The notes beneath the pieces were generated by a model. That model searched no databases. It was given only the letters and a program-made list of their open reading frames with translations, and was not told where the DNA came from. From Ralstonia sp. UNC404CL21Col (GTDB lineage: Bacteria > Pseudomonadota > Gammaproteobacteria > Burkholderiales > Burkholderiaceae): a DNA stretch of 64,000 nt. The position numbers and the translations under genes are program-made. Positions within the stretch are counted from its first letter, which is position 1. Every line of letters starts with the position of its first letter. Location: contig NZ_JIBE01000004.1 in NCBI RefSeq assembly GCF_000620465.1, positions 124,001 to 188,000 on the forward strand, given 5' to 3'. Shown piece by piece: positions 1 to 21,692 of this stretch.

Positions 1-166
1 AGGCAATCGAGTCCGCGCCGACCATGTCGAAGGTGATGTCGCTGCTATCGGCAACGAAGAGGGCTTCGACCTCCGCGCCCGTCGCCTTGCTGACCACAAT
101 CGCCTGGTGCAGCGCGAGGTAGGAGGCATGGCTGCCGTCGATGGCGAGCAGGATTCGCTGATACAT
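1..166 (-). CDS. Universal stress protein, N-terminal part (cut by window edge)
   Basis: Reading leftward from an ATG at 166, the first 55 residues begin MYQRILLAIDGSHAS, the typical first beta-strand and phosphate-binding start of the UspA fold. The remainder lies outside the window. USP proteins are small cytoplasmic nucleotide-binding proteins induced by stress and growth arrest. The gene lies about 80 bp downstream of the alcohol dehydrogenase gene on the same strand, with an FNR-like site in that gap, so it may have its own low-oxygen promoter. Family assignment is firm; the specific role is unknown. Confidence 0.85.
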   Translation of the reverse strand, partial: MYQRILLAIDGSHASYLALHQAIVVSKATGAEVEALFVADSSDITFDMVGADSIA

Positions 167-236
167 GGTGGTCTCCAAGGCGTTGCGCAGTACGGCACCG
201 CGTGTAATCAGCGTAGACAGCGTGGCGGCGGGGCGG

Positions 237-250
237 TTGATGCGCGTCAA
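237..250. promoter_or_regulatory. FNR/ANR-like box upstream of the USP gene
   Basis: TTGAT-GCGC-GTCAA matches the FNR consensus TTGAT-N4-ATCAA at 9 of 10 positions. It ends 70 bp before the USP start at 166 and overlaps the stop codon of the alcohol dehydrogenase gene. Spacing and sequence resemble the other sites in this window, and an FNR-type regulator is encoded at 7349-8149. Function is inferred. Confidence 0.5.
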
Positions 251-1257
251 AGGTCTTTCGACGCCACCTGCAGGACGGCAGCGCCCGCCACGCGCCCCGC
301 GCGGAGGTCTTCCAAGGCGGTGTCGGCGTCTTGCAGCGGATAGGGCGTGACGTGAACCTGCAACGGGATGTCCGCTGCCACGCGCATAAGCGCGAGCCCG
401 TCCGCCCGCGTCAGGTTTGCCACGGAGACCAGCTTGCGTTCTTCCCATAGCCACCGGTACGGAAATGCCGGGATGTCGCTCATGTGAATGCCGCCGCAAA
501 CCACCGCGCCGCCCTTGACCACGGCCTGCAGCGCCTGCGGCACCAGCGCGCCGATCGGCGCGAAGATCAGCGCGGCGTCGAGCGGTTCCGGTGCGGCGTC
601 GTCGCTCGCGCCTGCCCACTTGGCACCGGTGTCCCGCGCAAGTTGCTGGGCCGCTGCGTCGCCGGCGCGGGTGAAGGCGAAGACTTCGCGTTGCTCTGCC
701 ACGGCAATCTGCGTGATGAGGTGGGCCGCCGCGCCAAAGCCGTAGATGCCGATCCTGCGCGCATCGCCTGCCATGCGCAGTGTGCGGTAGCCGATCAGCC
801 CCGCGCAGAGCAGCGGCGCGGCGTGGGCATCGTCGTACCGCGCGGGAATCGGCAGGCAATATCGCGCGTCGCAGACGACGTATTGCGCATAGCCGCCGTC
901 GCGCGTGTAACCGGTGAAGACGGGGTGGTCGCACAGGTTTTCGCGCCCGTGCAGGCAGTACGGGCAGGCGCCGCATGTCCAGCCGAGCCACGGCACGCCG
1001 ACGCGCTCGCCTGGGGCGGGGGCTGTCACGCCATCGCCGCACGACTCGACGATGCCGACAATTTCGTGACCGGGGATGAGCGATGGTTTCGGCGCGGTCA
1101 ATTCGCCGTCCACGATATGCAGGTCGGTACGGCAGACACCACACACCGATACCGCGATCCGGACTTCGCCGGGCCCTGGCGTGGGCATCGGCACGTCACG
1201 CCAGATCAATGGCGTTCCCGCGCGTTCCATCACCATGGCCTGCATCGATTCAGACAT
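247..1257 (-). CDS. Zinc-dependent alcohol dehydrogenase (MDR family, AdhA-like)
   Basis: A 336-residue medium-chain dehydrogenase/reductase that should interconvert primary alcohols and aldehydes with NAD(H). Catalytic zinc ligands are visible as Cys in GVCRTDLH and His in GHE near residues 40-65, with a later Cys in LLCAGL. The structural zinc site is the four-Cys cluster CGACPYCLHGRENLC near residue 100. A Rossmann-like IGIYGFGAAAH stretch follows near residue 170. The start at 1257 is supported by GGAG seven bases upstream. It lies among stress genes, which suggests a fermentative role in disposing of reductant at low oxygen (inference). Confidence 0.9.
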   Translation of the reverse strand: MSESMQAMVMERAGTPLIWRDVPMPTPGPGEVRIAVSVCGVCRTDLHIVDGELTAPKPSLIPGHEIVGIVESCGDGVTAPAPGERVGVPWLGWTCGACPYCLHGRENLCDHPVFTGYTRDGGYAQYVVCDARYCLPIPARYDDAHAAPLLCAGLIGYRTLRMAGDARRIGIYGFGAAAHLITQIAVAEQREVFAFTRAGDAAAQQLARDTGAKWAGASDDAAPEPLDAALIFAPIGALVPQALQAVVKGGAVVCGGIHMSDIPAFPYRWLWEERKLVSVANLTRADGLALMRVAADIPLQVHVTPYPLQDADTALEDLRAGRVAGAAVLQVASKDL

Positions 1258-1333
1258 CGCTGTCTCCGAGGTTGGCGTGTCTGGTCAGTATGGATGCGTG
1301 CCCCTGAACTTCGTACCGCCAGTCGACCGTCCA

Positions 1334-1347
1334 CTGCGCCAGATCAA
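1334..1347. promoter_or_regulatory. Weak FNR-like site upstream of the alcohol dehydrogenase
   Basis: CTGCG-CCAG-ATCAA has one perfect half-site and a degenerate partner (7 of 10 to consensus). It lies 76 bp before the adh start, the same distance range as the better sites in the window. Alone it would not be convincing. Confidence 0.25.
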
Positions 1348-1410
1348 TCGGAATGCGCTGCCGCGCGCAATACTGAACGGGTGCGAGCAACGGCCATCGG
1401 TGTCCACGCA

Positions 1411-2637
1411 ATGTCTTCGCTGCTGTCTTTCTCGGTTGCCTTGGGCGTGGGGCTGGCGATCGGCCTTGAGCGCGAGCGCAGCCATGCCGACCGCGCGGAG
1501 TTGCCGGCGGGCATGCGAACGTTTGCGATCGCGGCGCTGGCGGGTGCCATTGCCGCAAGTTTGCCGATGCCCCTGGCCGTGCCGGCGGTGTTGCTGACGG
1601 TCGCGGTGTTGGCGGCGCTCGGATATCACCATTCGGCCAATGTCGATCCGGGCGTGACGACGGAACTCGCGCTTGTGGCAACCACGCTGTTGGGCGCCTA
1701 TGCCGTGAGCGAGCCCGAAATGACGGCAGGCCTCGGCACGGTCCTCCTAGTTCTGCTCTATGCCAAAGCGGGTTTGCATCGGTTTGCCCGTACGGTCATC
1801 ACCCAGCGCGAGCTGGCCGATCTGCTGATTCTTGCCGTGGCGGCATTGCTGATCTGGCCCGCGGTTCCCGACCGGAACATGGGGCCGCTGAACGCCTGGA
1901 ACCCGCATACGCTGTGGCTGGTCGTGCTGCTCGTCATGCTGACCGGCAACGCGGGGCATTTTGCGGCGCGATGGTTTGGCGAGCGCATCGGCTTGCCGCT
2001 GGCTGGCTTGTTCAGCGGGTTTGCATCGAGCGTGGCTACGACGACGGCCATGGCTGCACGCGTGCGCAAACATCACGGCTCCGTTGACGGCGCGGCTGCC
2101 GGAGCGCTGCTGTCCAATGTCGCCACGCTGGTGCAGATGCTGCTGCTGATTGCCGCCATCAACATCGACTTGCTGCAGCTTCTTGCGGCCCCGCTGGTGG
2201 CGGGCATCACCGTGACCGTGGCATGGTCCGCTCTCTGGATATGGCGGGACAACACGCCACGTCAGGATGCGCAGGACAGTTCAGCGTCCTCCATTAACTG
2301 GCGTGTCGCGATCGGTTTTGCATTGTGGACGGCGGCTTTGCTGCTGGCTGCGGCCGTTGCGCGCACCTGGTTCGGGACAGCGGCGGTGGCGGCTGTCACC
2401 GTGTTGGGTGCGTTTGCCGATGTGCATGCCGCAACCGCGTCCATCGCAACGCAGCTGGCTGGACAGACGCTGCAAAGGTCGACGGCTGGCGAGCTGGTGA
2501 TGCTCGCGCTGACGGCCAACACGCTCTCGAAGGCCGTTGTGACCCTTGGCGGAGGTCACGCTTTTGCCGGCAAGGTCACGGTCGGCTTGCTGAGCATGCT
2601 TGCGCTCAGCTGGGCGGCATTCTGGTTTGTCGCCTAG
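1411..2637 (+). CDS. MgtC/DUF4010-family membrane protein
   Basis: A 408-residue polytopic membrane protein with roughly ten hydrophobic segments. The N-terminus, with GLAIGLERER near residue 13, is typical of the MgtC/SapB module. The C-terminal two thirds look like the DUF4010 module, including GLFSGFASSVATTTAMAARV near residue 205. No transport activity is established for this fusion family. The open frame extends far upstream without a start-like signal. ATG 1411 gives a protein beginning MSSLLSF; an in-frame GTG at 1381 is possible. It converges on the next gene with no spacer. Confidence 0.75.
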   Translation: MSSLLSFSVALGVGLAIGLERERSHADRAELPAGMRTFAIAALAGAIAASLPMPLAVPAVLLTVAVLAALGYHHSANVDPGVTTELALVATTLLGAYAVSEPEMTAGLGTVLLVLLYAKAGLHRFARTVITQRELADLLILAVAALLIWPAVPDRNMGPLNAWNPHTLWLVVLLVMLTGNAGHFAARWFGERIGLPLAGLFSGFASSVATTTAMAARVRKHHGSVDGAAAGALLSNVATLVQMLLLIAAINIDLLQLLAAPLVAGITVTVAWSALWIWRDNTPRQDAQDSSASSINWRVAIGFALWTAALLLAAAVARTWFGTAAVAAVTVLGAFADVHAATASIATQLAGQTLQRSTAGELVMLALTANTLSKAVVTLGGGHAFAGKVTVGLLSMLALSWAAFWFVA

Positions 2638-2820
2638 TCAATCCCGACCAATGCCCAGCATCCAATAGAGCGGGCACATGCGGATCAACCCCGTCACCAG
2701 AGGGATCAACCCCACCCAGCCCACCCACGCGGGGACCTTGCCAAAAAACGCCAGCAGGATCATGGCGAGGCCGATCAAGATGCGGACGGCACGGTCCGCG
2801 GCTCCAACATTGGTGAACAT
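2638..2820 (-). CDS. Small DUF2892 (YgaP transmembrane-type) inner-membrane protein
   Basis: A 60-residue protein starting MFTNVGAADRAVRILIG, with two membrane segments and a conserved C-terminal CPLYWMLGI. This matches the DUF2892 domain that forms the membrane part of YgaP rhodaneses, here without a rhodanese domain. Its stop codon abuts the stop of the convergent DUF4010 gene. It lies 32 bp downstream of the CBS gene on the same strand and may be cotranscribed with it. The role is unknown. Confidence 0.8.
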   Translation of the reverse strand: MFTNVGAADRAVRILIGLAMILLAFFGKVPAWVGWVGLIPLVTGLIRMCPLYWMLGIGRD

Positions 2821-2852
2821 GGCAGGGCTCCTGAAAACGGTGGAAAGACGAT

Positions 2853-3320
2853 TTAGAGCGTCAGGTTGAGCGGCGCATGCTGGCGTGACCCGGTAACGTT
2901 GTCGCGCCCCAGGATGCCGGCCAGCAAGGTCCATTCGCCGCCCATTGCGCGGATGGTGTCGTCCAGGCTCAGCATGCCCACCAGCCGTTGCTGACGATCG
3001 ACCACCGCCAGGCGGTGCAGGCCGTGGCTCAGCATTGCGCGCAAGGCTTCGCTGATCATCGCGTCGTCGTGGATGGTCAGAAGGCCGCGCGTCATGACTT
3101 CGGAGACGGGGGTTTCGCTGCAATCGCTGTGGCTGGCAATGCCGTGCACCACCATGTCGCGGTCCGTGACGATGCCGACCACGCGCGAACCTCCAGCCGT
3201 GTGTTCGGTGACAAGCAGCGCACGGGCGCTTTCGTCACGCATCAAACGCGCGGCCTGTTGCAGCGTTGCCGTTGCCCGGATGTGGACGATGCGGTGGGAG
3301 CAAATCTCGTCGATCCTCAT
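2853..3320 (-). CDS. CBS-domain protein
   Basis: A 155-residue protein made almost entirely of two CBS motifs (about residues 8-65 and 75-130), including VVGIVTDRDMV and the second-motif phrase LVGMLSLDDTI. CBS pairs bind adenine nucleotides and act as energy sensors. The length and stand-alone architecture resemble hypoxic response protein 1 (Rv2626c) of the mycobacterial dormancy regulon. The start at 3320 is preferred over upstream codons because GGAG lies six bases before it. A possible FNR-like site is 54 bp upstream. Confidence 0.85.
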   Translation of the reverse strand: MRIDEICSHRIVHIRATATLQQAARLMRDESARALLVTEHTAGGSRVVGIVTDRDMVVHGIASHSDCSETPVSEVMTRGLLTIHDDAMISEALRAMLSHGLHRLAVVDRQQRLVGMLSLDDTIRAMGGEWTLLAGILGRDNVTGSRQHAPLNLTL

Positions 3321-3374
3321 GCTGAACTCCGATGCGCGTACGTTTTCACTATAAGAACGGGCCGGTGTCAGAAG

Positions 3375-3388
3375 TTGATCCCGCACAA
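3375..3388. promoter_or_regulatory. FNR-like site upstream of the CBS gene
   Basis: TTGAT-CCCG-CACAA has one perfect half-site and 8 of 10 matches overall. It ends 54 bp before the CBS start at 3320. Position and half-site fit the window-wide pattern, but the second half is degenerate. Confidence 0.35.
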
Positions 3389-3514
3389 GGTGCCGTGAGC
3401 TTTCCGTGACTGCCCCAAGATGGGCAGCGGTTAGCGGACGAGTCTATCGAGCGGTGCGCTTCGCTCATTGAGGCAGATCAAGTGCCATTGGCGGCCGATC
3501 TGGCGAGCCAAACG

Positions 3515-3528
3515 CTGATGTAAATCAA
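3515..3528. promoter_or_regulatory. FNR/ANR-like box upstream of the USP-BON operon
   Basis: CTGAT-GTAA-ATCAA matches the FNR consensus at 9 of 10 positions. It ends 79 bp before the USP start at 3608, which heads six same-strand genes running to 7320. It is one of the three best FNR-like matches in the window. Confidence 0.55.
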
Positions 3529-3607
3529 GGGGCGATCCGCCGGGTGGTCCAACATGGAATTCAGCAACCCCGCTTGGGGAAGACGACGGATTCGATGGAG
3601 GCACATC

Positions 3608-4108
3608 ATGTACGACAGGATTCTGGTAGCGGTGGATGGCAGCCCGACCGCAGATCGGGCGCTGGACGAAGCCATCCAGCTTGCACAAAAGCTCGGCTCC
3701 GAGCTGGTGATCGCGCACATCATCGACAACTCGTATCTGATGTACGACGTCGGCTATGTCGATGTGGGCGCCTTTACCGAGGCGTTGGTCAAACAGGGCA
3801 ACCAAATCGTTGCCGACGCGCGTGCCAAGGCCGAAAAGGCCGGTGTGCACGTCCACAGCGTGGTGGTCGACGATCCCATCGGAACCTTCGATATCGGCAC
3901 GGCGATTGAACAGGCTGCCCACAACGTCGGTGCTCAAGCTCTGGTGCTGGGCACGCACGGGCGACGCGGCTTTCGCCGGCTGTTCCTGGGCAGCGTTGCC
4001 GAGAGCGTTGTGCGCATGAGCACACTGCCGGTGCTGCTGGTTCGTGCGGTGTCGACAGAAACACGGCAAGCGGCGACGGAACCGCTGAGCAATGCCGTCA
4101 TCGCCTAG
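3608..4108 (+). CDS. Universal stress protein (single domain)
   Basis: A 166-residue UspA-fold protein starting MYDRILVAVDGSPTAD. The C-terminal ATP-binding signature G-x2-G-x9-G-S is present as GTHGRRGFRRLFLGSVAES around residue 130, so it belongs to the nucleotide-binding subclass. ATG 3608 is used because the longer open frame (from 3554) adds sequence unlike the family. It heads a six-gene row ending at 7320 and carries an FNR-like site upstream, suggesting induction at low oxygen (inference). Confidence 0.92.
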   Translation: MYDRILVAVDGSPTADRALDEAIQLAQKLGSELVIAHIIDNSYLMYDVGYVDVGAFTEALVKQGNQIVADARAKAEKAGVHVHSVVVDDPIGTFDIGTAIEQAAHNVGAQALVLGTHGRRGFRRLFLGSVAESVVRMSTLPVLLVRAVSTETRQAATEPLSNAVIA

Positions 4109-4146
4109 CTCGCGCCTCCTCTCTGACACGACACCGGAATCCGACC

Positions 4147-4986
4147 ATGACCTACGCCAGCGTGATGGTGCATCTGGACCGCAGCGAACGCGCCATGCAC
4201 CGCCTCAACCTTGCGGCCCTGTATGCGCGGGCACACAACGCCAAACTTGTCGGCATCTACGCGAGCTTTGCGCCCAGCATCAGTTGGTTTTACATGATGG
4301 AAAACGCTGCGCGCTATCTGGAGGAAGACCGCATCCGGCGCGACAGCATCCGGGATGCCGTACACGCGCGCTTTCGCCTGGCGATCGAAGGGCTTCCGGT
4401 GGAAACCGAGTGGCGCGCAGTGGAGGGCGACCCCGTGGCGCTCGCGCTGCGCGAAGCGCGGGAGGCCGACCTCCTGGTGGTCGGACAACGAAACCACGAT
4501 GAACCGGACGAATTTGTCGCCGGCGACTTTGTGGAAACGCTGATCCTGGAGTCAGGCCGCCCGGTGCTGGTTGTGCCGTACGCCGGCAGTTTCACGACAT
4601 TGCCCAAGCGCGTTCTGGTGGCCTGGAGCGGTGGTCGCGAATCGGCCCGGGCGTTGCATGACGCCATACCCATCATGGCAGGCGCGAACGCACACGTGCT
4701 GCAGATCACCAGCACCCAGCCTAAGCACTGGGCCGAAGAAACCACGGTGGGGCAAGTCGCGCGTGCGCTGAACGCGCGCGGCATTCATGCCACGGTGGAA
4801 GAGACCGACTGCGCAGATTCCGACACCGCCATCGGCGAGTTGCTGCTCTCGCGAGCGGCCGACTTCAACGCCGACCTGATCGTCATGGGCGCCTACGGGC
4901 ACAGCCGCCTGCGCGAACTCGTGCTCGGCGGGGTGACGCGCACGCTGCTCAAGACGATGACCGTGCCGGTGCTGATGTCGCACTGA
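4147..4986 (+). CDS. Tandem-domain universal stress protein
   Basis: A 279-residue protein of two USP domains. The first (about 1-145) begins MTYASVMVHLDRSERA and has lost the glycine-rich nucleotide loop. The second (about 155-279) retains it as GAYGHSRLRELVLGGVTRTL, close to the family G-x2-G-x9-G-[ST] pattern. The last strand VPVLMSH closes the fold. Tandem USPs are typical of stress regulons in bacteria with anaerobic dormancy responses. It follows the single-domain USP by 38 bp and is probably cotranscribed. Confidence 0.9.
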   Translation: MTYASVMVHLDRSERAMHRLNLAALYARAHNAKLVGIYASFAPSISWFYMMENAARYLEEDRIRRDSIRDAVHARFRLAIEGLPVETEWRAVEGDPVALALREAREADLLVVGQRNHDEPDEFVAGDFVETLILESGRPVLVVPYAGSFTTLPKRVLVAWSGGRESARALHDAIPIMAGANAHVLQITSTQPKHWAEETTVGQVARALNARGIHATVEETDCADSDTAIGELLLSRAADFNADLIVMGAYGHSRLRELVLGGVTRTLLKTMTVPVLMSH

Positions 4987-5024: not shown

Positions 5025-5678
5025 ATGAAGAACGATATCCAGCTCAAGCACGATGTCGAAGAAGAACTGCAGTGGGATCCGGCAGTGGATGCCAGCTGCT
5101 TTGCAGTGAAAGCCAAGGACGGCGTCGTCACGCTTTCCGGCAGCGTCGATACGTTTGCAGACAAGCACGCGGCGGAAGAGGCTGTCCGACGTGTCGGCGG
5201 TGTGACTGCGCTTGTTGTGCACGTGGATGTGCGCATGCCGCCGGACATGCAGCGCCCGGACGATGAGGTGGCGCAGGCCATCAGCAGTGCGTTGCATTGG
5301 AATGTATCGGTGCCGTCGGAGTCCGTGCGGATCACCGTCGAAAACGGGGCCGTGACGCTGCGTGGTGAGGTTGACCAGGACTTCCAGCGCCGCGCCGCGC
5401 TCGACACCGTGCGCCGAGTGCGCGGCGTGACGTCGGTGGCCAACGCACTCACATTGCGTGCAGCCGCCGGGCCGGCGGATCTGAGCAATCGCATTGCCAA
5501 GGCGCTGCAACGCCTGGCCGCGGTGGACGCCTCGCGGCTCAATGTTTCCGTGGCCGACGGGACGGTGACCTTGTACGGGCCGCTGCGCAACCTCAACGAA
5601 TGCCGCGCCGCCCGAGAGGCCGCGTGGGACGCACCGGGCGTGCGCGCCGTCGTCGATCAGATGTGGGTGGGGTCCTAA
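5025..5678 (+). CDS. Three-BON-domain protein, copy 1
   Basis: A 217-residue protein built from three BON domains (about 3-72, 78-146 and 148-215), each with a G-x-V-T-L-x-G core, for example GVVTLSGSV, GAVTLRGEV and GTVTLYGPL. BON domains are small alpha/beta folds thought to bind membranes or ligands; OsmY is the best-known example. No signal peptide is visible, unlike OsmY, so this one is probably cytoplasmic. GGAG lies before the ATG. A paralogue lies two genes downstream at 6673. Confidence 0.85.
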   Translation: MKNDIQLKHDVEEELQWDPAVDASCFAVKAKDGVVTLSGSVDTFADKHAAEEAVRRVGGVTALVVHVDVRMPPDMQRPDDEVAQAISSALHWNVSVPSESVRITVENGAVTLRGEVDQDFQRRAALDTVRRVRGVTSVANALTLRAAAGPADLSNRIAKALQRLAAVDASRLNVSVADGTVTLYGPLRNLNECRAAREAAWDAPGVRAVVDQMWVGS

Positions 5679-5729: not shown

Positions 5730-6260
5730 ATGGAAAAGAAGCTGATTGTGTATTACTCGCGCACCGGTACGGCACGTCAGGTGGCCGAGCAGATGGCGGC
5801 GCAGAGCGGATGGCAGCTTGCCGAGGTGACGGACGAGCACCCGCGCGCCGGCTTTCTCGGAGACGCGCGTTGTGTGATCGAAACGGTATTTCATGCGCGC
5901 GCCAAATATCGCTATGAAGGCCCGCCGCTCGATGATGTCGAACACGTGGTCGTAATCGCGCCCATCTGGATGGGCCACTTGGCTTCGCCTATGCGGGACT
6001 TTCTGGCTGACCAACTGCCGGGGTCCACGCACCTGTCCGTGATCTGCGTCATGGCGGCGCGCGGGGCCTTCCGTGCAGTTGAAGAAATCATGCGCATCAC
6101 CGCCACCATTCCTGCGCCAGTGCTGGCGCTGTTCCAGCGCGACGTGCAGAGCGGGTTGTCGCAGGAGGAGATCGCAGGCTTTATCGACCAGGTAAAGACC
6201 GCCGGCCGGTGGGAGCAATCGAGGCAGCGCCCGGCGTGGCTTTCGCCGTCGGAAGCCTGA
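5730..6260 (+). CDS. Flavodoxin-family protein (HemG-like)
   Basis: A 176-residue flavodoxin-like protein. The FMN phosphate loop is visible as YYSRTGTARQVAEQ near residue 8, and later parts of the fold as VVVIAPIWMGHLASPMRDF near residue 75. It likely carries FMN and passes electrons to an unknown partner. It lies between the BON gene and the zinc-finger gene, 51 and 19 bp away, consistent with one transcript. The partner and physiological substrate cannot be told from sequence. Confidence 0.78.
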   Translation: MEKKLIVYYSRTGTARQVAEQMAAQSGWQLAEVTDEHPRAGFLGDARCVIETVFHARAKYRYEGPPLDDVEHVVVIAPIWMGHLASPMRDFLADQLPGSTHLSVICVMAARGAFRAVEEIMRITATIPAPVLALFQRDVQSGLSQEEIAGFIDQVKTAGRWEQSRQRPAWLSPSEA

Positions 6261-6279
6261 CGATCGAAGGAGATTGGGC

Positions 6280-6672: not shown

Positions 6673-7320
6673 ATGAAAAGCGATCTGGGTATCAAGCAGG
6701 ACGTGAACGACGAACTGCTCTGGGAGCCTGCGGTGGATGCCGCAGCAATTGGTGTGGAGGTGGACAACGGCGTCGTGACGCTGACCGGCCACGTGCGCAG
6801 CTACATGGAAAAGCTCGCGGCCGAACACGCAGCTGAGCGCGTTGCCGGCGTGCGCGGTGTCGTGCAGAAAATCGAAGTCCGCCTGCCGGGCACACACACG
6901 GACGCAGACGTTGCCCAGGCTGCCCGTGACGCGCTGGAATGGCAGGCCACGCTGCCGTCCAACCGCATCGAAGTGCTGGTCGAAAACGGCTGGGTGACGC
7001 TCTCGGGCGAAGTCGATTGGCCCTACCAGAGCGAACAGGCTGCGCATGCGGTGGGCTCGCTGCGCGGTGTCGCCGGGCTGATCAACCGGCTGCAGATCAA
7101 GGCGCGCGTGCAGCCGGTCAATGTTGCCGAGCAGATTGGCGCAGCGCTCAAGCGGCATGCCGCGCGTGAAGCCGAGCACATCCGCGTCACCGTCCAGGGT
7201 GGCACGGTCACACTTAGCGGTCACATTGGTTCAGCATCGGAGCGGCGCGCGGCCAAGGGCGCGGCATGGTCTGCACCCGGCGTGACGCAAGTCATCGATC
7301 ATCTCCAGATCGCGCCTTGA
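6673..7320 (+). CDS. Three-BON-domain protein, copy 2
   Basis: A 215-residue paralogue of the BON protein at 5025, with the same three-domain layout and an almost shared opening, MKSDLGIKQDVNDELLWEP against MKNDIQLKHDVEEELQWDP. Core motifs GVVTLTGHV, GWVTLSGEV and GTVTLSGHI are intact. GGAG precedes the ATG. It ends the six-gene row and converges on the FNR-type regulator gene. Two divergent copies in one operon suggest duplication followed by specialisation. Confidence 0.85.
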   Translation: MKSDLGIKQDVNDELLWEPAVDAAAIGVEVDNGVVTLTGHVRSYMEKLAAEHAAERVAGVRGVVQKIEVRLPGTHTDADVAQAARDALEWQATLPSNRIEVLVENGWVTLSGEVDWPYQSEQAAHAVGSLRGVAGLINRLQIKARVQPVNVAEQIGAALKRHAAREAEHIRVTVQGGTVTLSGHIGSASERRAAKGAAWSAPGVTQVIDHLQIAP

Positions 7321-8149: not shown

Positions 8150-8272
8150 GGGGCGGCTCCGGAAGGCGTCTGTGGTATTTGAACCACGCATCCTCGGTGA
8201 GGTGGTGGTGATCCGGCCACTGCGCTCCATCAACGCCCGGTGTCCGTAAGCTCAGTATCGGAGGCGCGGCGC

Positions 8273-10435: not shown

Positions 10436-10531
10436 CGCAGTCCCCGCGGGAGCCATCCCGACCCGGCGACACCTCAAAGCCAACTGCCCCCGCAGTCGCT
10501 GGTCCCTCCAATGGCTGGATGACAGGGACCG

Positions 10532-10545
10532 TTGAGTTGCATCAA
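10532..10545. promoter_or_regulatory. FNR/ANR-like box upstream of the P-type ATPase
   Basis: TTGAG-TTGC-ATCAA matches the FNR consensus at 9 of 10 positions. It ends 63 bp before the ATG at 10609. This position argues against an earlier in-frame ATG at 10552, which would lie only 6 bp after the site. Confidence 0.55.
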
Positions 10546-10608
10546 GCCTGGATGTCTGCGCTGCGCTCTAATGGTTTGCACATCCCATGCGGTTGCTCGT
10601 CATCCTCC

Positions 10609-13908: not shown

Positions 13909-13912
13909 GGCG

Positions 13913-14621: not shown

Positions 14622-15110
14622 TCAGGCAACCTGTTCCGCCTTTGCCTTTGCAGAACGTGCGAGTCCTGTCTTCCTGGCTTCGGAGTCGGGCAGGGCCATG
14701 AGGTTGAAGCTGTCAAAGAAGGCCTTCAACGAATCGGACGATGCCGCGAACAACTGAGACGAAGAGGTTTGCCCTTCCGACTGCTGCATTTGCTGCGTCC
14801 ACTCCGTCAGCCGACGCAAATAGGCGGCCTGCAGCTTGTTCGTAAACTCGGCCCACGTCTTCAGCGCCGTCGCACTGTGACTCGATTGCATCTTCATGAA
14901 GAGGCTTTGCGCAGACGCTAGCGATGTCCAGTCATGCGTTCCGCTCAGTTCATGTTCCAGTTCACGCACATCTTCCAGCGCAGCCTCGGCCAGCTTCAGC
15001 CGGAAGTGAGCCAGGTCGATTTGCGATTCGAGCATGAAGCTGGCGGTGCGGCTCATATCGCGCAGCACGGCGCACGCCACATTGCAGGTCATATCAGCAG
15101 GTTGTTGCAT
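14622..15110 (-). CDS. Phasin-like polyhydroxyalkanoate granule protein
   Basis: A 162-residue, mostly alpha-helical amphipathic protein without signal or membrane segments. The sequence is rich in Ala, Gln and Leu with regular spacing, such as LFMKMQSSHSATALKTWAEF, as in the phasin family (Phasin_2) that coats PHB granules. ATG 15110 follows GGAGAA at good spacing; the frame continues upstream without an equally good start. It heads phasin-hydrolase-PRTase. A second phasin lies at 38168 in the PHA synthase operon. Function is from family only. Confidence 0.75.
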   Translation of the reverse strand: MQQPADMTCNVACAVLRDMSRTASFMLESQIDLAHFRLKLAEAALEDVRELEHELSGTHDWTSLASAQSLFMKMQSSHSATALKTWAEFTNKLQAAYLRRLTEWTQQMQQSEGQTSSSQLFAASSDSLKAFFDSFNLMALPDSEARKTGLARSAKAKAEQVA

Positions 15111-15201
15111 GACGTTCTCCAGTGGGGTCTTGGCGGACGGGTGAGCAGGACCGCCGAATGAGGAATCCATCTGCAGCGTAGGCGTTCTGTGGTCGTATGC
15201 G

Positions 15202-15215
15202 TTGATATGACGCAA
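15202..15215. promoter_or_regulatory. FNR-like site upstream of the phasin gene
   Basis: TTGAT-ATGA-CGCAA has a perfect left half-site and 8 of 10 matches overall. It ends 91 bp before the phasin start at 15110. The same TTGAT-N4-CGCAA variant occurs upstream of hsp20 at 16995, which supports it as a real variant. Confidence 0.4.
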
Positions 15216-15300
15216 ATGGGTGGCCGCCGCGGGAACACCTTCGCTGGCACCGCTTCGTTTCAAGGCACTTATTGCCTGAGCCAGCGGCTCCGAAACAGTG

Positions 15301-16848
15301 TTACTGACTACCTCGGATGGTCTGCACCACTTTGCAGATGTCGTCGGGGATGACATGTGTGCGCTCCTCCACGTTGAGGGGCTCTTGTGTGGCGATCTGT
15401 GTATCCAGCACGTGCAGGTCTGCTTCGGACGCGTCGCGCCCGTCGCGCATGCGATTGCGGATGCGCGCACGCAGCGTGTCGACATCGGCCACGCAGTCGG
15501 CGATGGCTAAGGCAACGCCCAAGCGCCGGCCCAGCGAAAAGAAGCGTCTGCGCTGGTGCTCAGCCAGGAACGTGGCATCGGCAATCATCGGGAAACCGGC
15601 GCATGCACCGAGTTTGCAGATGGCCGCCAGACGTCGATAAGTACGCTCGACCGCACGCGGCAGGTAGCGATCGGCAGCGGCGACATGCCGGCTGCGTTGA
15701 CGTTCGACGTCGGAGCGCACGCGGATCATCTGTTCTGTTTGGGCAAGCTGTGCAGCCCGGGTTGATTTTCCGCTGCCTGAAAGGCCATGCATGAGAAGGA
15801 TGCAGGCCTCGTTTCGGCTGAGCAGTTCGTGAGACAGATTGAGCATGCGACGTGCCTCGGCCCGGGGCTTGGCGGCCAGATCCGGGGCGCCGTCCAGCTG
15901 ATGGGCGCGTTCGAGCAGGACACGAGCCCGCACGAGTGCGCGCATCGACGCGTAGAAGGGCAGAACTGCCAACCCGCCGTAGTCGCCGCATCGTTCAAGG
16001 TAGCGGTTGATGAGTCGATACGCCAGCCCGTCCAGACCTGCGGCGAGCAAATCCATGAACAGAAACGCGGTGTCGTACATGGTGTCGATCCACCGCAGCG
16101 ACGGCGAGAATTCGAGACAGTCGAACGGCGTCGGTTGCCCGTCGATGAGCACGATGTTGCCCAGGTGCAGATCGCCGTGGCATTCGCGGACGTGGCGGCT
16201 GCGCCGGCGTGACGCGAATGCCGCTTCCAGGCGATCGGCCTCCTGACGAAGCTGCGATACCGTGGCTTCCGCCAGTGTCGGGGCAGTGCTCAACGCGATG
16301 ACTCCCGCTGCGCAGTCTTCAAGCGTGCGCCGAATGCTTGAGGGCGTTCCATCATCCGAACTCGAGCTGGCAACAGGCGCGGTTGCGTGGAAATCTGCGA
16401 TCAGGTCGGCCAGCGCGTCGATTTCCTTCGGGCCAAGTCGGCCGTCATGTGCCACTGCGCTCAGTACGTCCTGCTGGGAAAAGCGGCGCATGCAGACCGC
16501 GTACTCACAAGGCGCGCCTTGGCCGTTGACGCGGATGGCGCCAGTGGCCGGATCGAGCGAAATCGGCACCACGCCAACGTATAGCGTGGGGGCGAGGCGA
16601 CGGTTGAGACGGCACTCTTCCTCGCAATCGATCTGCCGCGCACGAAGCGTCGAAAAGTCGACGAAATCGAGCGTGACCGGCTTGCGCACCTTGTACGCAA
16701 ATTCACCGGCCAAAAAGACCCACGACAAATGGGTTTCGATCATTTGCAGATCCGCAGCGGGATGCGGATACGCCGCGGCGTCAAGCATGCGGCTGACAAA
16801 CGCTTCTTCTGCCTGCGTGCTTGCAAGGATAGTGGCTTGTTCGGCCAT
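15301..16848 (-). CDS. Aminoglycoside-phosphotransferase-like/P-loop kinase fusion
   Basis: A 515-residue two-domain protein. The first 330 residues look like an APH-type kinase, with the catalytic CHGDLHLGNIVL near residue 225 and the metal-binding FDCLEF just after. The last 160 residues carry a Walker A, LMHGLSGSGKST, near residue 355, and resemble an AAA_33/gluconate-kinase-like P-loop domain. The same fusion occurs in Rv2004c, a member of the mycobacterial DosR regulon. The phosphorylated substrate is unknown and antibiotic resistance should not be assumed. Possible FNR-like sites lie upstream. Confidence 0.85.
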   Translation of the reverse strand: MAEQATILASTQAEEAFVSRMLDAAAYPHPAADLQMIETHLSWVFLAGEFAYKVRKPVTLDFVDFSTLRARQIDCEEECRLNRRLAPTLYVGVVPISLDPATGAIRVNGQGAPCEYAVCMRRFSQQDVLSAVAHDGRLGPKEIDALADLIADFHATAPVASSSSDDGTPSSIRRTLEDCAAGVIALSTAPTLAEATVSQLRQEADRLEAAFASRRRSRHVRECHGDLHLGNIVLIDGQPTPFDCLEFSPSLRWIDTMYDTAFLFMDLLAAGLDGLAYRLINRYLERCGDYGGLAVLPFYASMRALVRARVLLERAHQLDGAPDLAAKPRAEARRMLNLSHELLSRNEACILLMHGLSGSGKSTRAAQLAQTEQMIRVRSDVERQRSRHVAAADRYLPRAVERTYRRLAAICKLGACAGFPMIADATFLAEHQRRRFFSLGRRLGVALAIADCVADVDTLRARIRNRMRDGRDASEADLHVLDTQIATQEPLNVEERTHVIPDDICKVVQTIRGSQ

Positions 16849-16906
16849 ACGCGGGTTTCATCTCCGGACACTGAAGATCAATATCGCGCGGTTGCTGCCA
16901 TGCGCC

Positions 16907-16920
16907 CTGACGTAGATCAA
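16907..16920. promoter_or_regulatory. FNR-like site upstream of the kinase fusion gene
   Basis: CTGAC-GTAG-ATCAA matches 8 of 10 strictly, and sits inside a 16-bp near-perfect dyad (GACGT...ACGTC). It ends 58 bp before the kinase start at 16848 on the minus strand, the preferred spacing in this window, and is 163 bp from hsp20 on the other side. Confidence 0.45.
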
Positions 16921-16994
16921 CGTCGGCGCAGGGCGGTTGCCTGGCATGGAGTCATCGTCTTCGTTGGGGACTCCCGTGGTCACCTGCGGCCCCG

Positions 16995-17008
16995 TTGATC
17001 TGCCGCAA
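16995..17008. promoter_or_regulatory. FNR-like site upstream of the hsp20 operon
   Basis: TTGAT-CTGC-CGCAA has a perfect left half-site and 8 of 10 matches overall. It ends 75 bp before the hsp20 ATG at 17084. It is the same variant found upstream of the phasin gene at 15202. Confidence 0.42.
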
Positions 17009-17083
17009 GGCGCTCCGCCACCGCCGTGCCACGATGAATGTGCTCACCCCAAGATACCGGGGGCCAATCATCAGGAGGCAGTC

Positions 17084-17506
17084 ATGAGTCAACTCAAGCG
17101 TTATGACCCGTTCGCCATTGAGCCGGTCGGCGACATCTTCCAAGGGCTGCTGCGCTCGTTTCGCGGCGGGATGGACGGGGCGCTACCGTTCAAGGTGGAC
17201 GTGACGGAGTCGGACAAGGCCTACAACGTGGTCGCAGAAATCCCGGGCGCGAAGAAGGAAGACATCGACGTGACGGTCGATCGCGGCACGGTCATGATCT
17301 CGGCCAAGGTGGAGCGCAACTCCGAAGAGAAGGAAGGCGAACGCATCATCCGCAGCGAGCGCTACAGCGGCGCCATGCAGCGCATGTTCACGCTGGACGC
17401 GGCTGTCGATGAAAGCAAGGTCGATGCGACGTACGAGAACGGGCTGCTGCGCGTAACGCTGCCCAAGAAGGAAGCGTCGCCGCAGCAGCGCGTGACGATT
17501 CGCTGA
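17084..17506 (+). CDS. Hsp20/alpha-crystallin small heat-shock protein
   Basis: A 140-residue small heat-shock protein. The alpha-crystallin domain runs from about residue 38, with FKVDVTESDKAYNVVAEIPG and the closing ENGLLRVTLPKK, and a short C-terminal tail. It should act as an ATP-independent holdase in the cytoplasm. AGGAGG lies ahead of ATG 17084, so the longer open frame is not used. It is the first gene of a five-gene operon with a nuclease, a PRPP-synthetase-like protein and a nucleoside phosphorylase. HspX is the equivalent in the DosR regulon. Confidence 0.93.
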   Translation: MSQLKRYDPFAIEPVGDIFQGLLRSFRGGMDGALPFKVDVTESDKAYNVVAEIPGAKKEDIDVTVDRGTVMISAKVERNSEEKEGERIIRSERYSGAMQRMFTLDAAVDESKVDATYENGLLRVTLPKKEASPQQRVTIR

Positions 17507-17523
17507 GCGTCAGGGGCGATCGC

Positions 17524-18888
17524 ATGCGGCTGCAATTTCTCGGCGCGACCGACACGGTGACGGGCTCCAAGTACGTGCTTGAGACCGGCGGGCGCCGGGT
17601 CATGGTCGACTGCGGGCTCTTCCAGGGCTACAAGTCGCTGCGTCTGCGCAACTGGGACAAGCTCGCCGTCAACCCGCACCACATCGACGCGGTTGTACTG
17701 ACGCATGCCCATATCGACCACAGCGGCTACCTGCCGCTGCTCGTGCGCAATGGTTTTCATGGCCCGGTCTATTGCACGAAGGGCACCGCCGAACTGTGCA
17801 ACATCCTGCTGCCTGACAGCGCCCGGCTTGCGCAGGAGGATGCGCAGTACGCGAATGCCGAAGGGTTCTCGCGTCATCATCCGGCCTTGCCCCTCTACGA
17901 CGAAAAGGACGCCGCCAGGGCGTTACACCGGCTGCATCCCGTCGCCTATGGCGAGCGGTTTCCCGTTGCTGAGGGCGTGGAAGCCGAGTTCCACCGTGCA
18001 GGGCACATCATCGGTGCGGCCACGGCGACATTGTTCGCGGAGGGCCGTCGCGTCGTTTTTTCCGGCGACCTCGGGCGGCAGATCGACCCCGTCATGCGCC
18101 CACCCGAGCCCATTGCCGAGGCCGATACCCTGCTGGTTGAATCCACCTATGGCGATCGCGTGCATCCGGAAGGCGACCCGCTCGATGCGCTCCAGCAGGT
18201 TGTGCAGCGAACCATCGGGCAGGGCGGCACGCTGCTGATTCCCGCCTTTGCGGTCGGGCGTACGCAGGCGCTTCTGTATTGCCTGTACGTGCTGATTCGC
18301 GAACGTCGGATTCCGCATGTGCCGATCTACCTCGACAGCCCGATGGCCGAACTGGCGACCGAGGTGTTTGCGCGCCATGTCGACGATCTGCATATCGGCG
18401 CCTCCGACTGTCAGGCGGCGTGTGCGTTGGCCGTTCCGGTGCAGAGCCCTGAACAGTCCAGACATCTGGGCAGCGATCGCGCGCCCAAGATCATTCTTGC
18501 GGCAAGCGGCATGGCCACGGGTGGGCGGGTGCTGCATCACCTGAAGAGCTTTGGCGGGGGTAAGCGCAACGCCATCCTGATGTCGGGCTTCCAGGCGGCC
18601 GGCACGCGGGGCGCTGCGCTGCTGGCTGGTCAACGGGCGTTGCGCGTGCACGGACGCGAGGTCGCCATCCGCGCCTCGGTCGAGCAGATCCAGAACCTGT
18701 CCGCCCATGCGGACGCCAATGAACTGATGGCCTGGCTGCGCGGCTTTACGCGACCGCCACGGCAGACCTTCATCGTGCATGGCGAGCCGGCCGCCAGCGA
18801 CGCCTTGCGCCAGCGCATCGAGCACGAACTGCAGTGGCCCGTTCGGATGCCTGAGTATCGCCAGTCCTACGATCTGGAGGCCACATGA
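17524..18888 (+). CDS. Beta-CASP metallo-beta-lactamase-fold RNase
   Basis: A 454-residue protein with the metal-binding H-x-H-x-D-H motif as LTHAHIDHSGYLP near residue 60, a further His in HRAGHIIGAA, Asp in VFSGDLGRQ, and the beta-CASP motifs in DSPMAELATEVF, ILAASGMATGGRV and NLSAHADANEL. This layout fits RNA-processing exo/endonucleases of the YSH1/RNase J-like group. It probably degrades or trims RNA in the cytoplasm. It follows hsp20 by 17 bp and overlaps the next start by four bases. Its target RNAs are unknown. Confidence 0.9.
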   Translation: MRLQFLGATDTVTGSKYVLETGGRRVMVDCGLFQGYKSLRLRNWDKLAVNPHHIDAVVLTHAHIDHSGYLPLLVRNGFHGPVYCTKGTAELCNILLPDSARLAQEDAQYANAEGFSRHHPALPLYDEKDAARALHRLHPVAYGERFPVAEGVEAEFHRAGHIIGAATATLFAEGRRVVFSGDLGRQIDPVMRPPEPIAEADTLLVESTYGDRVHPEGDPLDALQQVVQRTIGQGGTLLIPAFAVGRTQALLYCLYVLIRERRIPHVPIYLDSPMAELATEVFARHVDDLHIGASDCQAACALAVPVQSPEQSRHLGSDRAPKIILAASGMATGGRVLHHLKSFGGGKRNAILMSGFQAAGTRGAALLAGQRALRVHGREVAIRASVEQIQNLSAHADANELMAWLRGFTRPPRQTFIVHGEPAASDALRQRIEHELQWPVRMPEYRQSYDLEAT

Positions 18889-19826
18889 CTGCCCCGGCCG
18901 TCGGCCTGGACCCGCAGCGTGTGCTGATTGCCATGCCGGGCTGCGAGGCCGCCACCATGCGACTCGCCATCCCGCTGAGCGCGGAACTGGGGCATGCCGC
19001 CGTGACGCACTTTCCGGACGGTGAATCGTACGTGCGGCTTTACACGCCCGTGCACGGCGCAGAGGTTGCCATTGTCTGCACGCTCGATCATCCCGACGAA
19101 AAGCTGTTGCCGCTGCTCTGGCTGGCCATTGCCGCACGCCAGGGCGGAGCGCGCCGCGTTGGCCTGATTGCGCCGTACCTGCCGTATATGCGGCAGGACG
19201 TCGTCTTCAACGCAGGCGAGATTCGCGCTGCCGAGCACTTTGCCGCTTTGCTGAATCCGGCGTTCAACTGGCTTGTCACGGTCGACCCGCATCTGCATCG
19301 CCTCGCGCATCTGTCGGATGTCTATCGCATACCCACGGTCGCCGTGCAAGCCGCGCCAGCGATTGCCGCATGGATCCAGACCCATGTACAGGCGCCGTTC
19401 CTGATCGGGCCCGACGATGAAAGCCGCCAGTGGGTCCAGCATGTGGCTGGCATTTGCAAGGCACCATGGGCAGCATTGGCCAAGACGCGGCACAGTGCGT
19501 GGCACGTGGAGATTACTGAAGTGCCGACCATTCCGGCGGGGTATGTACCGGTCCTCGTCGACGACATCATCTCGACCGGCCGCACGATGCTCGCCGCGGC
19601 AGCGTTGTTGCAGCGTGCCGGTCAGCGTCAGCCAATCTGCGTAGGCGTGCATGCCGTGTTTGCCGCCGACGCGTACAGCCGCCTGTGCGCTGCCAGCGCA
19701 GATGTCGTCACGTGCGACACCATTCCGCACCCTTCGAACCAGGTCGCGCTGACAGAGCCGCTGGTCGACGCCGTTTCACGCATGTTTGATCTACCCCTGC
19801 CTTCGAACAAGCCGATGCTTGTTTGA
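18885..19826 (+). CDS. Ribose-phosphate pyrophosphokinase-like protein
   Basis: A 313-residue member of the PRPP-synthetase family. The N-terminal half keeps the pattern PDGESYVRLYTPVHGAEV and the ATP-region APYLPYMRQD. The C-terminal PRPP-binding loop is VLVDDIISTGRTMLAAA near residue 225. Divergence from housekeeping Prs suggests a paralogue with a specialised role, such as PRPP or ribose-phosphate turnover in stress. ATGA overlap with the nuclease gene indicates coupling. It sits with a phosphorylase that could make ribose phosphates from nucleotides. Confidence 0.85.
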   Translation: MTAPAVGLDPQRVLIAMPGCEAATMRLAIPLSAELGHAAVTHFPDGESYVRLYTPVHGAEVAIVCTLDHPDEKLLPLLWLAIAARQGGARRVGLIAPYLPYMRQDVVFNAGEIRAAEHFAALLNPAFNWLVTVDPHLHRLAHLSDVYRIPTVAVQAAPAIAAWIQTHVQAPFLIGPDDESRQWVQHVAGICKAPWAALAKTRHSAWHVEITEVPTIPAGYVPVLVDDIISTGRTMLAAAALLQRAGQRQPICVGVHAVFAADAYSRLCAASADVVTCDTIPHPSNQVALTEPLVDAVSRMFDLPLPSNKPMLV

Positions 19827-19855
19827 CCGGGGCGTTTTCGTATCTGGAGGCCATC

Positions 19856-20134
19856 ATGAAACAGATCCGGTTCCTGCCTGACGAGCCGACCTACTGCGCA
19901 GCGGGGCCGCGTCTGCAATGCCGCGCCTCGGTCGATGGCAACTCCGCAAGCTACGCGATCACGGCTGAAGCGCTCGAAGATCATTTCGGCGCGCGCTCCT
20001 GCCGCTCTGACGATCTGCTCAGCGCATTCCAGGTGCACCGCGGTGACATTGAAGAAGTCGCACGCATGCTGTTCGAGCAAACGGGGTCGAAAGAGATCAC
20101 GCTTCACAGCGGGCACTTCCGCTTTGCCGGCTGA
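19856..20134 (+). CDS. Small DUF1488-like protein
   Basis: A 92-residue cytoplasmic protein starting [18 protein letters not shown]. It has the [25 protein letters not shown] pattern that looks like the DUF1488 family, whose members have no known function. GGAGG lies before ATG 19856. It sits 29 bp after the Prs-like gene and 10 bp before the phosphorylase, so it is part of the operon. It may regulate or stabilise one of the neighbouring enzymes, but nothing in the sequence shows this. Confidence 0.65.
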
Positions 20135-20144
20135 CGTACCTGCC

Positions 20145-21692
20145 ATGAGCACCGTTTCCGTGCCGTCTCTGGACGCACCCCTTGCGCCGCAGGGGTGTCT
20201 CAGGTTCAAGGCGCTTGGCATTGATACGTGGCAGGAGCACGTCATCTACATGCATCCGGACAGCGCTGTTTGCCGGTCGGAGGGTTTTGCCGCGCAGGCC
20301 CGTGTGGAAGTGCAGATCGGGCAGCGATCAGCCATCGCAACGCTGAACCTCGTGGGATCGGGTCTGCTGGAGAAGCATGAGGTGAGCCTGTCTGCCAGCG
20401 CGGTCGATGCGTTGATGGCGCGACCCGGGGATGAAGTCTGTGTCAGGCATGCGCCGTCGCTCGAATCGCTGCGGGCCCTGCGGGCGAAGATCTACGGCGC
20501 GCATCTGGATGCCAAGCAATTGCAGGACATCGTGGCGGACATTTCGCACGAGCGCTATGCCGATGTCCATATCGCAGCCTTCCTGAGTGCGTGCTCATCC
20601 GGCCGAATGACCATCAAGGAGACCATCGACCTCACACAGGCGATGGTCGACGCGGGCGAGCGCCTGCAGTGGGATCGCGCCGTCGTGGCAGACAAGCACT
20701 GCGTGGGCGGGTTGCCCGGCAACCGCACCAGCCCCATCGTGGTGGCCATCTGCGCGGCGGCGGGGCTGCTGCTGCCCAAAACGTCATCACGCGCCATCAC
20801 CTCGCCGGCAGGCACCGCAGACATGATGGAAACGCTCACCCGCGTCAACCTGAGTGCTGCAGAGCTGCGAAGCGTTGTGGGGCAGGTCGGCGCATCGCTC
20901 GCGTGGGGCGGCGCGTTGAGCCTCAGCCCCGCGGACGACGTCTTGATTCGCGTGGAAAGGGCGCTCGATGTCGACAGCGATGCACAGCTTGTGGCGTCCA
21001 TTCTCTCCAAGAAGATCGCGGCCGGGTCCACCCATGTGTTGATCGACGTGCCCGTCGGCCCAACGGCCAAAGTCCGCAGTGTCGAAGACCTCGAACGCCT
21101 GGAGATGTTGCTCAAGCGAGTGGCCCAGGCGTTTGATGTGCAGGTGTTGATGGTGCGCACGGATGGCGCTCAACCGGTTGGCCGCGGAATCGGCCCTGCG
21201 CTGGAAGCAAGAGACGTCCTGGCGGTGCTGCAGCGCTCTCCGACTGCGCCATTCGACTTGCGGGAACGGTCTTTATTGCTTGCCGGCGCGTTGCTGGAAT
21301 TCTGCGGCGCAGGCATTGCCGGAACGGGGCTCGACATGGCAACCGGCCTGCTCGACAGCGGCGCTGCATGGCGCAAGTTCGAAGCGATCTGCGAGGCGCA
21401 GGGCGGCTTGCGCATCCCCGGAGAAGCCGTGTTCCGCCGCGACGTGGTTGCCGAACAAAATGGCATCGTCACCAACATCGACAACCGCCACCTGGCCCGC
21501 ATCGCAAAGCTTGCGGGCGCACCGATGCGTCAAGTCGCGGGCGTGCAGATGCATGTGCGGCTGCGGGATCAGGTGAGTGTGGGGCAGCCGCTATTCACGA
21601 TTCATGCGCAGGCCTCGGGCGAGCTGGAGTATTCGTCGGCATATGCCTTGGCGCATGCTGCCGTGGATTTGTCTCCGATGGGAATCAGTTGA
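20145..21692 (+). CDS. Thymidine/AMP phosphorylase (long archaeal-type form)
   Basis: A 515-residue nucleoside phosphorylase of the long form, with about 90 extra N-terminal residues compared with E. coli DeoA. The phosphate and substrate regions are visible as [18 protein letters not shown] and [17 protein letters not shown] (residues about 185-235). Archaeal members release bases from NMPs to give ribose 1,5-bisphosphate, while bacterial members are annotated as putative thymidine phosphorylases. Presence with a nuclease and a PRPP-synthetase-like protein supports nucleotide salvage from RNA. The true substrate is uncertain. Confidence 0.85.

Follow-up and report, generated by a model that had tools for sequence, protein, structure and literature searches.

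The closest described system to the locus analysed here is the lxa locus of Burkholderia cenocepacia, BCAM0275-BCAM0323 (Sass et al., 2013, via PMC6127331, PMC9733578, PMC9104464 and PMC3759415), which the excerpts of these four papers report to be induced by low oxygen and required for anoxic persistence. The locus in question is a gene cluster of Ralstonia sp. UNC404CL21Col, contained in a 64-kb stretch of DNA (hereafter the window) from contig 4 of the 11-contig, 5,087,452 bp (5.09 Mb) genome, and its gene content and upstream motifs make it very probable that the cluster is the Ralstonia version of a Burkholderiales lxa-type low-oxygen survival island. The literature base, in each case an excerpt, comprised the four papers above together with PMC6515984, PMC9104804 and PMC9700705. 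Domain calls were made by Pfam and NCBIfam profile searches of the open reading frames (ORFs) of the window, and the nearest solved chains were taken from PDB sequence ranking.

Both lxa and the Ralstonia island encode universal stress proteins (USPs), including larger ones, a DUF1488 protein, Hsp20, BON-domain proteins, a phosphotransacetylase (Pta), a zinc alcohol dehydrogenase (ADH) and a metallo-beta-lactamase (MBL) protein, and this whole combination, which we took as the mark of an lxa-type cluster with the MBL protein as an RNase, is found here, Pta lying outside positions 1-21692. Unlike lxa, the Ralstonia island holds within the locus an FNR, a kinase-regulator pair, MgtA, an APH-AAA kinase fusion, PhaC, resistance-nodulation-division (RND) efflux genes and a nucleoside monophosphate (NMP) phosphorylase; the FNR/Anr of B. 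cenocepacia (BCAM0049) sits outside lxa. PfkB, PhbB and cytochrome c, which the excerpts name for lxa, were absent among the window ORFs scanned. The parts, by window position and strand, are as follows.

1..166, reaching left to about -286, minus: USP clipped by the window edge (PF00582; contig 4, 123729-124166, minus; start Met near window position 166)
247..1257, minus: zinc ADH (PF08240; 66-74% identity to Burkholderia pyrrocinia and Cupriavidus loci; BCAM0299 is the lxa counterpart by product name)
1405..2637, plus: MgtC/DUF4010 membrane protein (PF02308, PF13194; start assumed within ORF 484-2637)
2638..2823, minus: YgaP-like small membrane protein, start assumed (PF11127)
2853..3386, minus: two-CBS-domain protein (PF00571)
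3554..4108, plus: USP, start perhaps 3608 (PF00582)
4147..4986, plus: tandem USP (PF00582, twice)
5025..5678, plus: three-BON-domain protein (PF04972)
5730..6260, plus: flavodoxin-like protein (PF12724, 33.5 bits; copies of 52-57% identity in two Cupriavidus islands)
6673..7320, plus: three-BON-domain protein (PF04972)
7349..8233, minus: FNR-type Crp/Fnr regulator, start probably inside the ORF (PF13545/PF00027)
8403..9791, plus: histidine kinase with a hydrophobic N-terminal region, PAS and HisKA_3 (from Pfam and the translation)
9788..10435, plus: NarL/LuxR-type response regulator (PF00072, PF00196)
10306..11349, plus: MgtA-type P-type ATPase, N-terminal piece, gene start probably near 10630, ending at an in-frame TAA
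11353..13215, plus: MgtA-type P-type ATPase, C-terminal piece (TIGR01524, 907.7 bits)
13258..14013, minus: phosphoribosyltransferase (PF00156)
13913..14596, minus: alpha/beta hydrolase (PF20408, 22.5 bits, under the cut-off of 27)
14622..15227, minus: phasin-like protein, judged by eye (82-85% identity in L113 and L110; no Pfam family matched ORF 14622-15485)
15301..16848, minus: APH-like and AAA_33 P-loop kinase fusion (PF01636, PF13671; the translation shows GLSGSGKST and HGDLHLGN; nothing related in the PDB at E 0.001)
16937..17506, plus: Hsp20, start probably 17081 (PF00011)
17524..18888, plus: MBL/beta-CASP ribonuclease (PF10996, PF07521; BCAM0300 is the lxa counterpart by product name)
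18885..19826, plus: PRPP synthetase-like enzyme (Prs), overlapping the RNase gene by 4 bp (NF005537, 411.7 bits)
19823..20134, plus: DUF1488 protein (PF07369; BCAM0277 is the lxa counterpart by product name)
20142..21692, plus: NMP (AMP) phosphorylase-like enzyme (TIGR02645)
22518..26728, plus: RND efflux, HlyD-type adaptor and AcrB-type pump
28586..30907, plus: P1B-type ATPase with a C-terminal hemerythrin domain (PF00122, PF01814)
35535..38158, minus: acetate kinase (AckA) and MaoC-phosphotransacetylase (Pta at 36713-38158)
38690..45218, minus: ABC transporter, HlyD adaptor and outer-membrane efflux protein (OEP), adjoining phaC and mgtA in L111 and L112
45219..47000, minus: polyhydroxybutyrate (PHB) synthase PhaC (PF07167)

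The USPs, CBS protein, Hsp20, P-type ATPase, phosphoribosyltransferase, APH/P-loop fusion and kinase-regulator pair listed by the initial annotation are thus all present by Pfam; two of its three USPs lie inside the window, and the third is real but lies mostly to the left of it. The phosphoribosyltransferase and alpha/beta hydrolase are separate, overlapping genes in the window; on pHG1 of C. necator H16 (L093, 246623-247966 of NC_005241.1) the two are annotated as one protein, in reversed order.

The same annotation had placed the island at 1..21692. A gene cluster is indeed there, but 21692 is no natural edge, because genes of the right half adjoin mgtA, the phosphorylase or the FNR/kinase pair in the stretches L110-L112. 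To the right of this position follow RND efflux, cytochrome b561, the P1B ATPase-hemerythrin fusion, AckA, MaoC-Pta, the ABC transporter and PhaC, and the genes at 35.5-47 kb of the window adjoin left-half genes in three of the four same-genus stretches read: in L111 and L112, phaC-OEP-HlyD-ABC adjoins mgtA-phosphorylase-DUF1488-Prs-MBL-Hsp20, while in L110 AckA-Pta-PhaC is placed between mgtA and the kinase/FNR pair. We therefore read the island, from gene order, as probably one unit of about 47 kb that has been shuffled between species, with the stretch first described as its left half. Beyond the left-edge USP, the left flank holds a glutamine-amidotransferase gene; the 20 kb on this side also include FliD-like and VgrG-type genes, together with ORFs that match no Pfam family.

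Most of the gene set is clustered again on two Cupriavidus plasmids, probably beyond chance, and part of it in B. pyrrocinia. Within one 49-kb stretch of C. necator C39 p1 lie 18 of the 23 query pieces of window 1-21692, and 17 of the 23 lie within 49 kb on pMTS1 of Cupriavidus sp. P-10; these are two of four Cupriavidus records with MBL and kinase fusion less than 60 kb apart, chosen for the smallest distances. The shared pieces are about 28-74% identical and the gene order is reshuffled, and relatives of the P1B ATPase-hemerythrin fusion (64-65% identity) adjoin the APH-AAA fusion in two Cupriavidus islands. H16 pHG1 carries a part only (MBL, DUF4010, USP, ADH and the phosphoribosyltransferase-hydrolase), with genes for anaerobic ribonucleotide reductase and denitrification next to it. 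In B. pyrrocinia BX1 a single row comprises MBL, ADH, three USPs, a response regulator, FNR and ADH.

A further described system is the low-oxygen response of Bradyrhizobium diazoefficiens. The excerpt of PMC6515984 gives bll3115, bll3116 and bll3117 as up in microoxia, with protein log2 values of 2.9, 4.4 and 2.1 and transcripts raised 15.4-, 7.7- and 5.1-fold, respectively, and a later table lists a predicted FixK2 box for bll3117 and an operon bll3117-bll3116-bll3115 (PMC9104804, excerpt). These are the same three enzymes as the RNase, Prs-like enzyme and phosphorylase of the window, in one operon, and the microoxia or FixK2 genes in the excerpts also include USP, CBS, Hsp20, ADH, phosphoketolase and acetate kinase. 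The Bradyrhizobium set differs in being linked to FixLJ-FixK2 and in having its locus tags scattered over the genome.

Control of the Ralstonia island by low oxygen is supported because it combines a four-cysteine FNR, FNR-type boxes and a FixL-like PAS kinase. The cluster of an Fe-S FNR is bound by C-X2-C-X5-C and a fourth cysteine, and the translation of the island FNR contains C-X2-C-X5-C and a further Cys, the four-cysteine pattern expected of an Fe-S FNR; against the Fnr model NF008365 it scored 211.9 bits, under the cut-off of 228. An FNR-type Fe-S regulator had been proposed at the outset, and on the cysteine pattern it stands, but that it takes the place of a haem sensor, as proposed, is doubtful. 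In the neighbouring kinase, the PAS domain has FixL haem-PAS chains as its best PDB matches (57.6 bits), and a PAS His that is kept in all five orthologues compared aligns with the His of FixL SRHDSY. FixL-type haem sensors have their proximal His in the PAS domain, and a His at that place may also occur in non-haem PAS domains; the kinase is accordingly a candidate haem-PAS (FixL-like) sensor.

FNR-type boxes were defined as sites with at most one mismatch to TTGAYNNNNRTCAA, and controls were first-order Markov sequences rather than exact shuffles. Those of note in the window are the following.

237..250: TTGATGCGCGTCAA, 0 mismatches, about 71 bp upstream of the left-edge USP
3468..3481: 1 mismatch, between the divergent CBS and USP genes
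3515..3528: 1 mismatch, upstream of the USP
10532..10545: 1 mismatch, upstream of mgtA; L113 has a near-identical box at the corresponding place
16907..16920: 1 mismatch, between the divergent kinase-fusion and Hsp20 genes; the same 14-mer occurs in L113
22276..22289: 1 mismatch, between the phosphorylase and RND genes; the same 14-mer occurs in L011
47032..47045: 1 mismatch, upstream of phaC; a nearly identical box, TTGATGCANCTCAA, precedes phaC in L110-L112

The genome as a whole has 332 such boxes in 5,087,452 bp, against 139 for the backward control pattern. Window 1-22500 contains six where the genome rate predicts 1.47 (Poisson P 0.004), and 100 Markov sequences for this range gave a mean of 1.35 and a largest count of 4. 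Perfect boxes number five in L094, five in L095, three in L092 and four in L093 (Markov means 0.07-0.13), the counts for the Cupriavidus islands (P-10 pMTS1, C39 p1 and H16 pHG1) being 4-5 each. Elsewhere in the Ralstonia genome a perfect box on contig 3 (G000:C3:1604267-1604280) precedes a further USP match (C3:1604364) by about 84-97 bp and may bring this USP, which is not part of the island, under the same control.

With RND efflux, the hemerythrin-P1B ATPase, MgtA and MgtC-type genes within or next to it, and with USPs and Hsp20, which generally answer many stresses, the region might instead be a general stress or metal-tolerance island (RND, P-type ATPases, USPs, BON and Hsp20) with no special tie to oxygen. 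Against this speak the FNR gene and its boxes, the low-oxygen induction of lxa given in the excerpts, and the Bradyrhizobium counterparts, which the excerpts describe as microoxia-induced with predicted FixK2 boxes; we regard such an island as most improbable here.

Several observations weigh against an lxa-type low-oxygen island and have to be set beside this evidence. Over window 1-47100 the excess of boxes is weaker, 8 against 3.07 by genome rate (P 0.014), and among 60 Markov sequences for that range the highest count was 9. The C. metallidurans locus L096 has no perfect FNR box (Markov means were 0.00-0.13 over all five relatives), L093 includes denitrification genes that may bring FNR boxes of their own, and no box precedes mgtA in L110-L112, where the neighbours of mgtA differ. 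Some 700 kb separate the RNase from the kinase fusion in C. metallidurans CH34, and in the window mgtA itself is broken. The likeness to lxa is a likeness to a published product list, with B. pyrrocinia BX1 as the sequence stand-in, and B. cenocepacia H111, according to the excerpts, is without lxa and still survives anoxia. Lastly, the part of the 2019 Bradyrhizobium table at hand marks bll3115-bll3117 with '-' both as FixK2 targets and for soybean bacteroids (PMC6515984).

We nevertheless favour the lxa-type low-oxygen island, for which a simple course of events may be proposed. When oxygen falls, the island-encoded Fe-S FNR would switch on several short operons, assisted by the FixL-like PAS kinase and its NarL-type regulator. 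These operons would yield stress proteins (USPs, Hsp20, CBS and BON), fermentation and redox enzymes (ADH, Pta-AckA and PHB), and functions in cation and metal transport and in RNA and nucleotide recycling, with the outcome that the cell survives without growing. We infer both the use of the island by this strain and the pairing of regulators with promoters. The hypoxic survival programme in a betaproteobacterium suggested by the initial annotation thus appears well supported by lxa-type content, FNR boxes, an Fe-S-type FNR and microoxic induction in Bradyrhizobium.

The DosR regulon of mycobacteria, from which that suggestion had been drawn, has its genes scattered over the genome, whereas the Ralstonia set forms one island. 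The two resemble each other in hypoxia and in the superfamilies of USP, CBS, Hsp20, APH-AAA fusion, phosphoribosyltransferase, P-type ATPase and NarL-family regulator; they differ in the sensor domain, in the boxes and in the remoteness of the sequences, the island ATPase moreover being MgtA-type. The single USP (USP1) matched TB31.7 and 3cis, the latter presumably Rv2623, with 32.4 and 31.9 bits, at ranks 7 and 8 of 13 PDB matches, and neither was among the four PDB matches of the tandem USP. Rv2626c ranked 14 of 51 PDB matches of the CBS protein (37.7 bits). None of the 20 PDB matches of Hsp20 was named HspX, in a list that displayed no organisms and with the presence of HspX in the PDB unchecked. 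DosS and DosT are sensor kinases with haem GAF domains; the eight Pfam matches of the island kinase include PAS and no GAF, and the DosT and DevS chains match it over the ATPase part only (26.2 and 23.6 bits). The DosR box consensus had no match at three or fewer mismatches, and its loose half-form gave 12 matches against 16.1 expected. Counterparts for nearly all the genes, as first claimed, hold as superfamily relations, and closer orthology lacks support given the weak or absent PDB ranks of USP and CBS, the MgtA-type ATPase and the missing DosR box. For USP and CBS against Rv2623 and Rv2626c, orthology beyond the superfamily finds no support in the PDB ranking.

Sets resembling the island also occur in Actinobacteria. 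Common to the Rhodococcus plasmids DK17 pDK1 (L098) and BH4 (L104) are a GAF-domain kinase or protein, USPs and the APH-AAA fusion, to which DK17 pDK1 adds CBS proteins and PfkB, and BH4 adds P-type ATPases, ADH and flavodoxin-domain proteins. This co-occurrence, together with an ADH identity of 50%, would fit a common descent of the island and the DosR regulon as a set, or assembly by exchange with Actinobacteria. Rv2004c too joins APH and AAA; the comparison made here is with the Rhodococcus proteins, not with Rv2004c, and these homologues are 27-30% identical to the island fusion and fall in a separate clade. Trees were built from 17 APH-AAA rows (three actinobacterial) and 10 ADH rows (two actinobacterial), mycobacterial rows being in neither, and the long-branch rows, a second Rhizobium fusion and the Rhizobium ADH, were kept. 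The three actinobacterial fusions form one starred clade (100/100) on a branch of 1.62, and the Ralstonia fusion clusters with those of Cupriavidus (99/98). Among the ADH rows, the two from Actinobacteria pair (95/94), apart from the proteobacterial ones. Shared descent or exchange is hence disfavoured by sequence for the two genes treed, and, with USP and CBS far from the Mycobacterium tuberculosis chains and no DosR box, we hold it quite improbable for the set. Recent exchange with Actinobacteria, one form that the 'exchanged' assembly could take, thus lacks support, and the likeness to DosR is best read as parallel use of old protein families. A comparison of lxa with the mycobacterial DosR regulon appears in the excerpt of Cullen et al. 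(2018; PMC6127331), so that the central idea of the initial annotation was already in print.

Twelve plasmid loci for the APH-AAA fusion were picked by us from 102 records and are not a sample. Among them, plasmids of Bradyrhizobium (L102), Leisingera (L103), Rhizobium (L105), Sinorhizobium (L106) and Variovorax (L101) hold a varying part of related sets, with USPs, CBS, ADH, APH-AAA, mgtA or other P-type ATPases and BON; little of the island is found in Amphritea (L100), Chelatococcus (L108), Azospirillum (L107) and Methylobacterium (L109). The related plasmid sets suggest that such low-oxygen islands may be movable.

The P-type ATPase scored as the magnesium-transporting type MgtA (TIGR01524). 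CtpF is a P-type ATPase of another type, and the proposed counterpart relation was rejected. An in-frame TAA at 11347-11349 splits mgtA and leaves a C-terminal open frame of 621 aa. When 15 further genomes of the genus were searched, 13 had a counterpart of at least 88% identity with an open frame of 876-1056 aa, and the remaining two (88 and 90% complete) gave distant mgtA matches only. Among the genomes seen, the break would thus be peculiar to this one, unless it is a sequencing error.

The operon at 17524-21692, encoding the RNase, the Prs-like enzyme, the DUF1488 protein and the phosphorylase, was absent from the initial list; its gene ends overlap or nearly touch. The phosphorylase scores 688.9 bits with TIGR02645 (cut-off 434.6) and 461.2 with AMP_phos, under the cut-off of 535, and its closest PDB chains, 4ga5/4ga6 (327.5 bits), we take to be the Thermococcus AMP phosphorylase. 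Among the matches listed, it is 93-94% identical to Ralstonia entries (the R. edaphi cluster, and R. pickettii SSH4 at 94%). The Prs-like enzyme is closest to 1u9y (132.5 bits), with RQD, KTR and DDIISTG stretches in common, and the RNase to chains of the RNase TTHA0252 (270 bits). One phosphorylase copy was found in the genome; R. pickettii SSH4 (L015) has a second on the contig of the first, 62% identical to that of the window and accompanied by an MBL gene of its own (54%).

Of the best 80 of at least 587 confirmed phosphorylase loci, some of them on short contigs, 65 have a Prs relative no more than 3 kb away on the same strand, and 41 have an MBL relative. Bacteroidota and Verrucomicrobia bins appear among the record titles; parts of the operon recur across phyla, and TIGR02645 exceeds its cut-off in 18 of 120 genomes drawn from the phylum, this one included. 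A general tie of the operon module to USP islands was considered and rejected, a USP lying in the retrieved flanks of only 11 of the 80 loci.

In archaea, such a phosphorylase feeds ribose-1,5-bisphosphate (R15P) isomerase and RuBisCO, and the excerpts mention the shunt genes for some bacteria. The Ralstonia phosphorylase is of the same family as that of the archaeal NMP shunt, but has Prs-like and RNase genes beside it instead. A shunt with RuBisCO or R15P isomerase was rejected, neither having a match in this genome, and PhnN has a single match of 63 bits, under the cut-off of 156. Beyond Bradyrhizobium and the mentions of the shunt, no described biochemical role of the operon in bacteria surfaced in the literature searched. 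Tentatively, and at odds that we judge to be rather poor, the operon may be an oxygen-controlled, RuBisCO-free version of the archaeal shunt. It would then be a starvation device widespread among bacteria, and would have entered lxa-type islands as a single module. Under anoxia, NMPs would be freed by the beta-CASP RNase (or by other RNases) and split by the phosphorylase, with phosphate, into base and ribose-1,5-bisphosphate; AMP would thereby be drawn from the adenylate pool, the energy charge kept up and the phosphoribosyl unit banked, to be returned to nucleotides by the Prs-like enzyme and phosphoribosyltransferases once oxygen returns. We infer this energy-charge and ribose-bank role ourselves.

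Further to the right in the window, at 56594-56699, a glycine riboswitch (RF00504, 66.2 bits) lies upstream of ORF 56845-58098, an unscanned frame with the look of an amino-acid oxidase.

Ordinary as a 'DosR island', the locus is a solid addition to the lxa kind: the supposed dormancy island can be placed in the known lxa system, which is thereby extended to Ralstonia with defined FNR-type boxes. Related sets are carried on plasmids of Proteobacteria and Rhodococcus, and the two genes treed do not cross between these groups, which suggests parallel use. The RNase-Prs-phosphorylase operon stands out as the most interesting part of the island, and one worth biochemistry.

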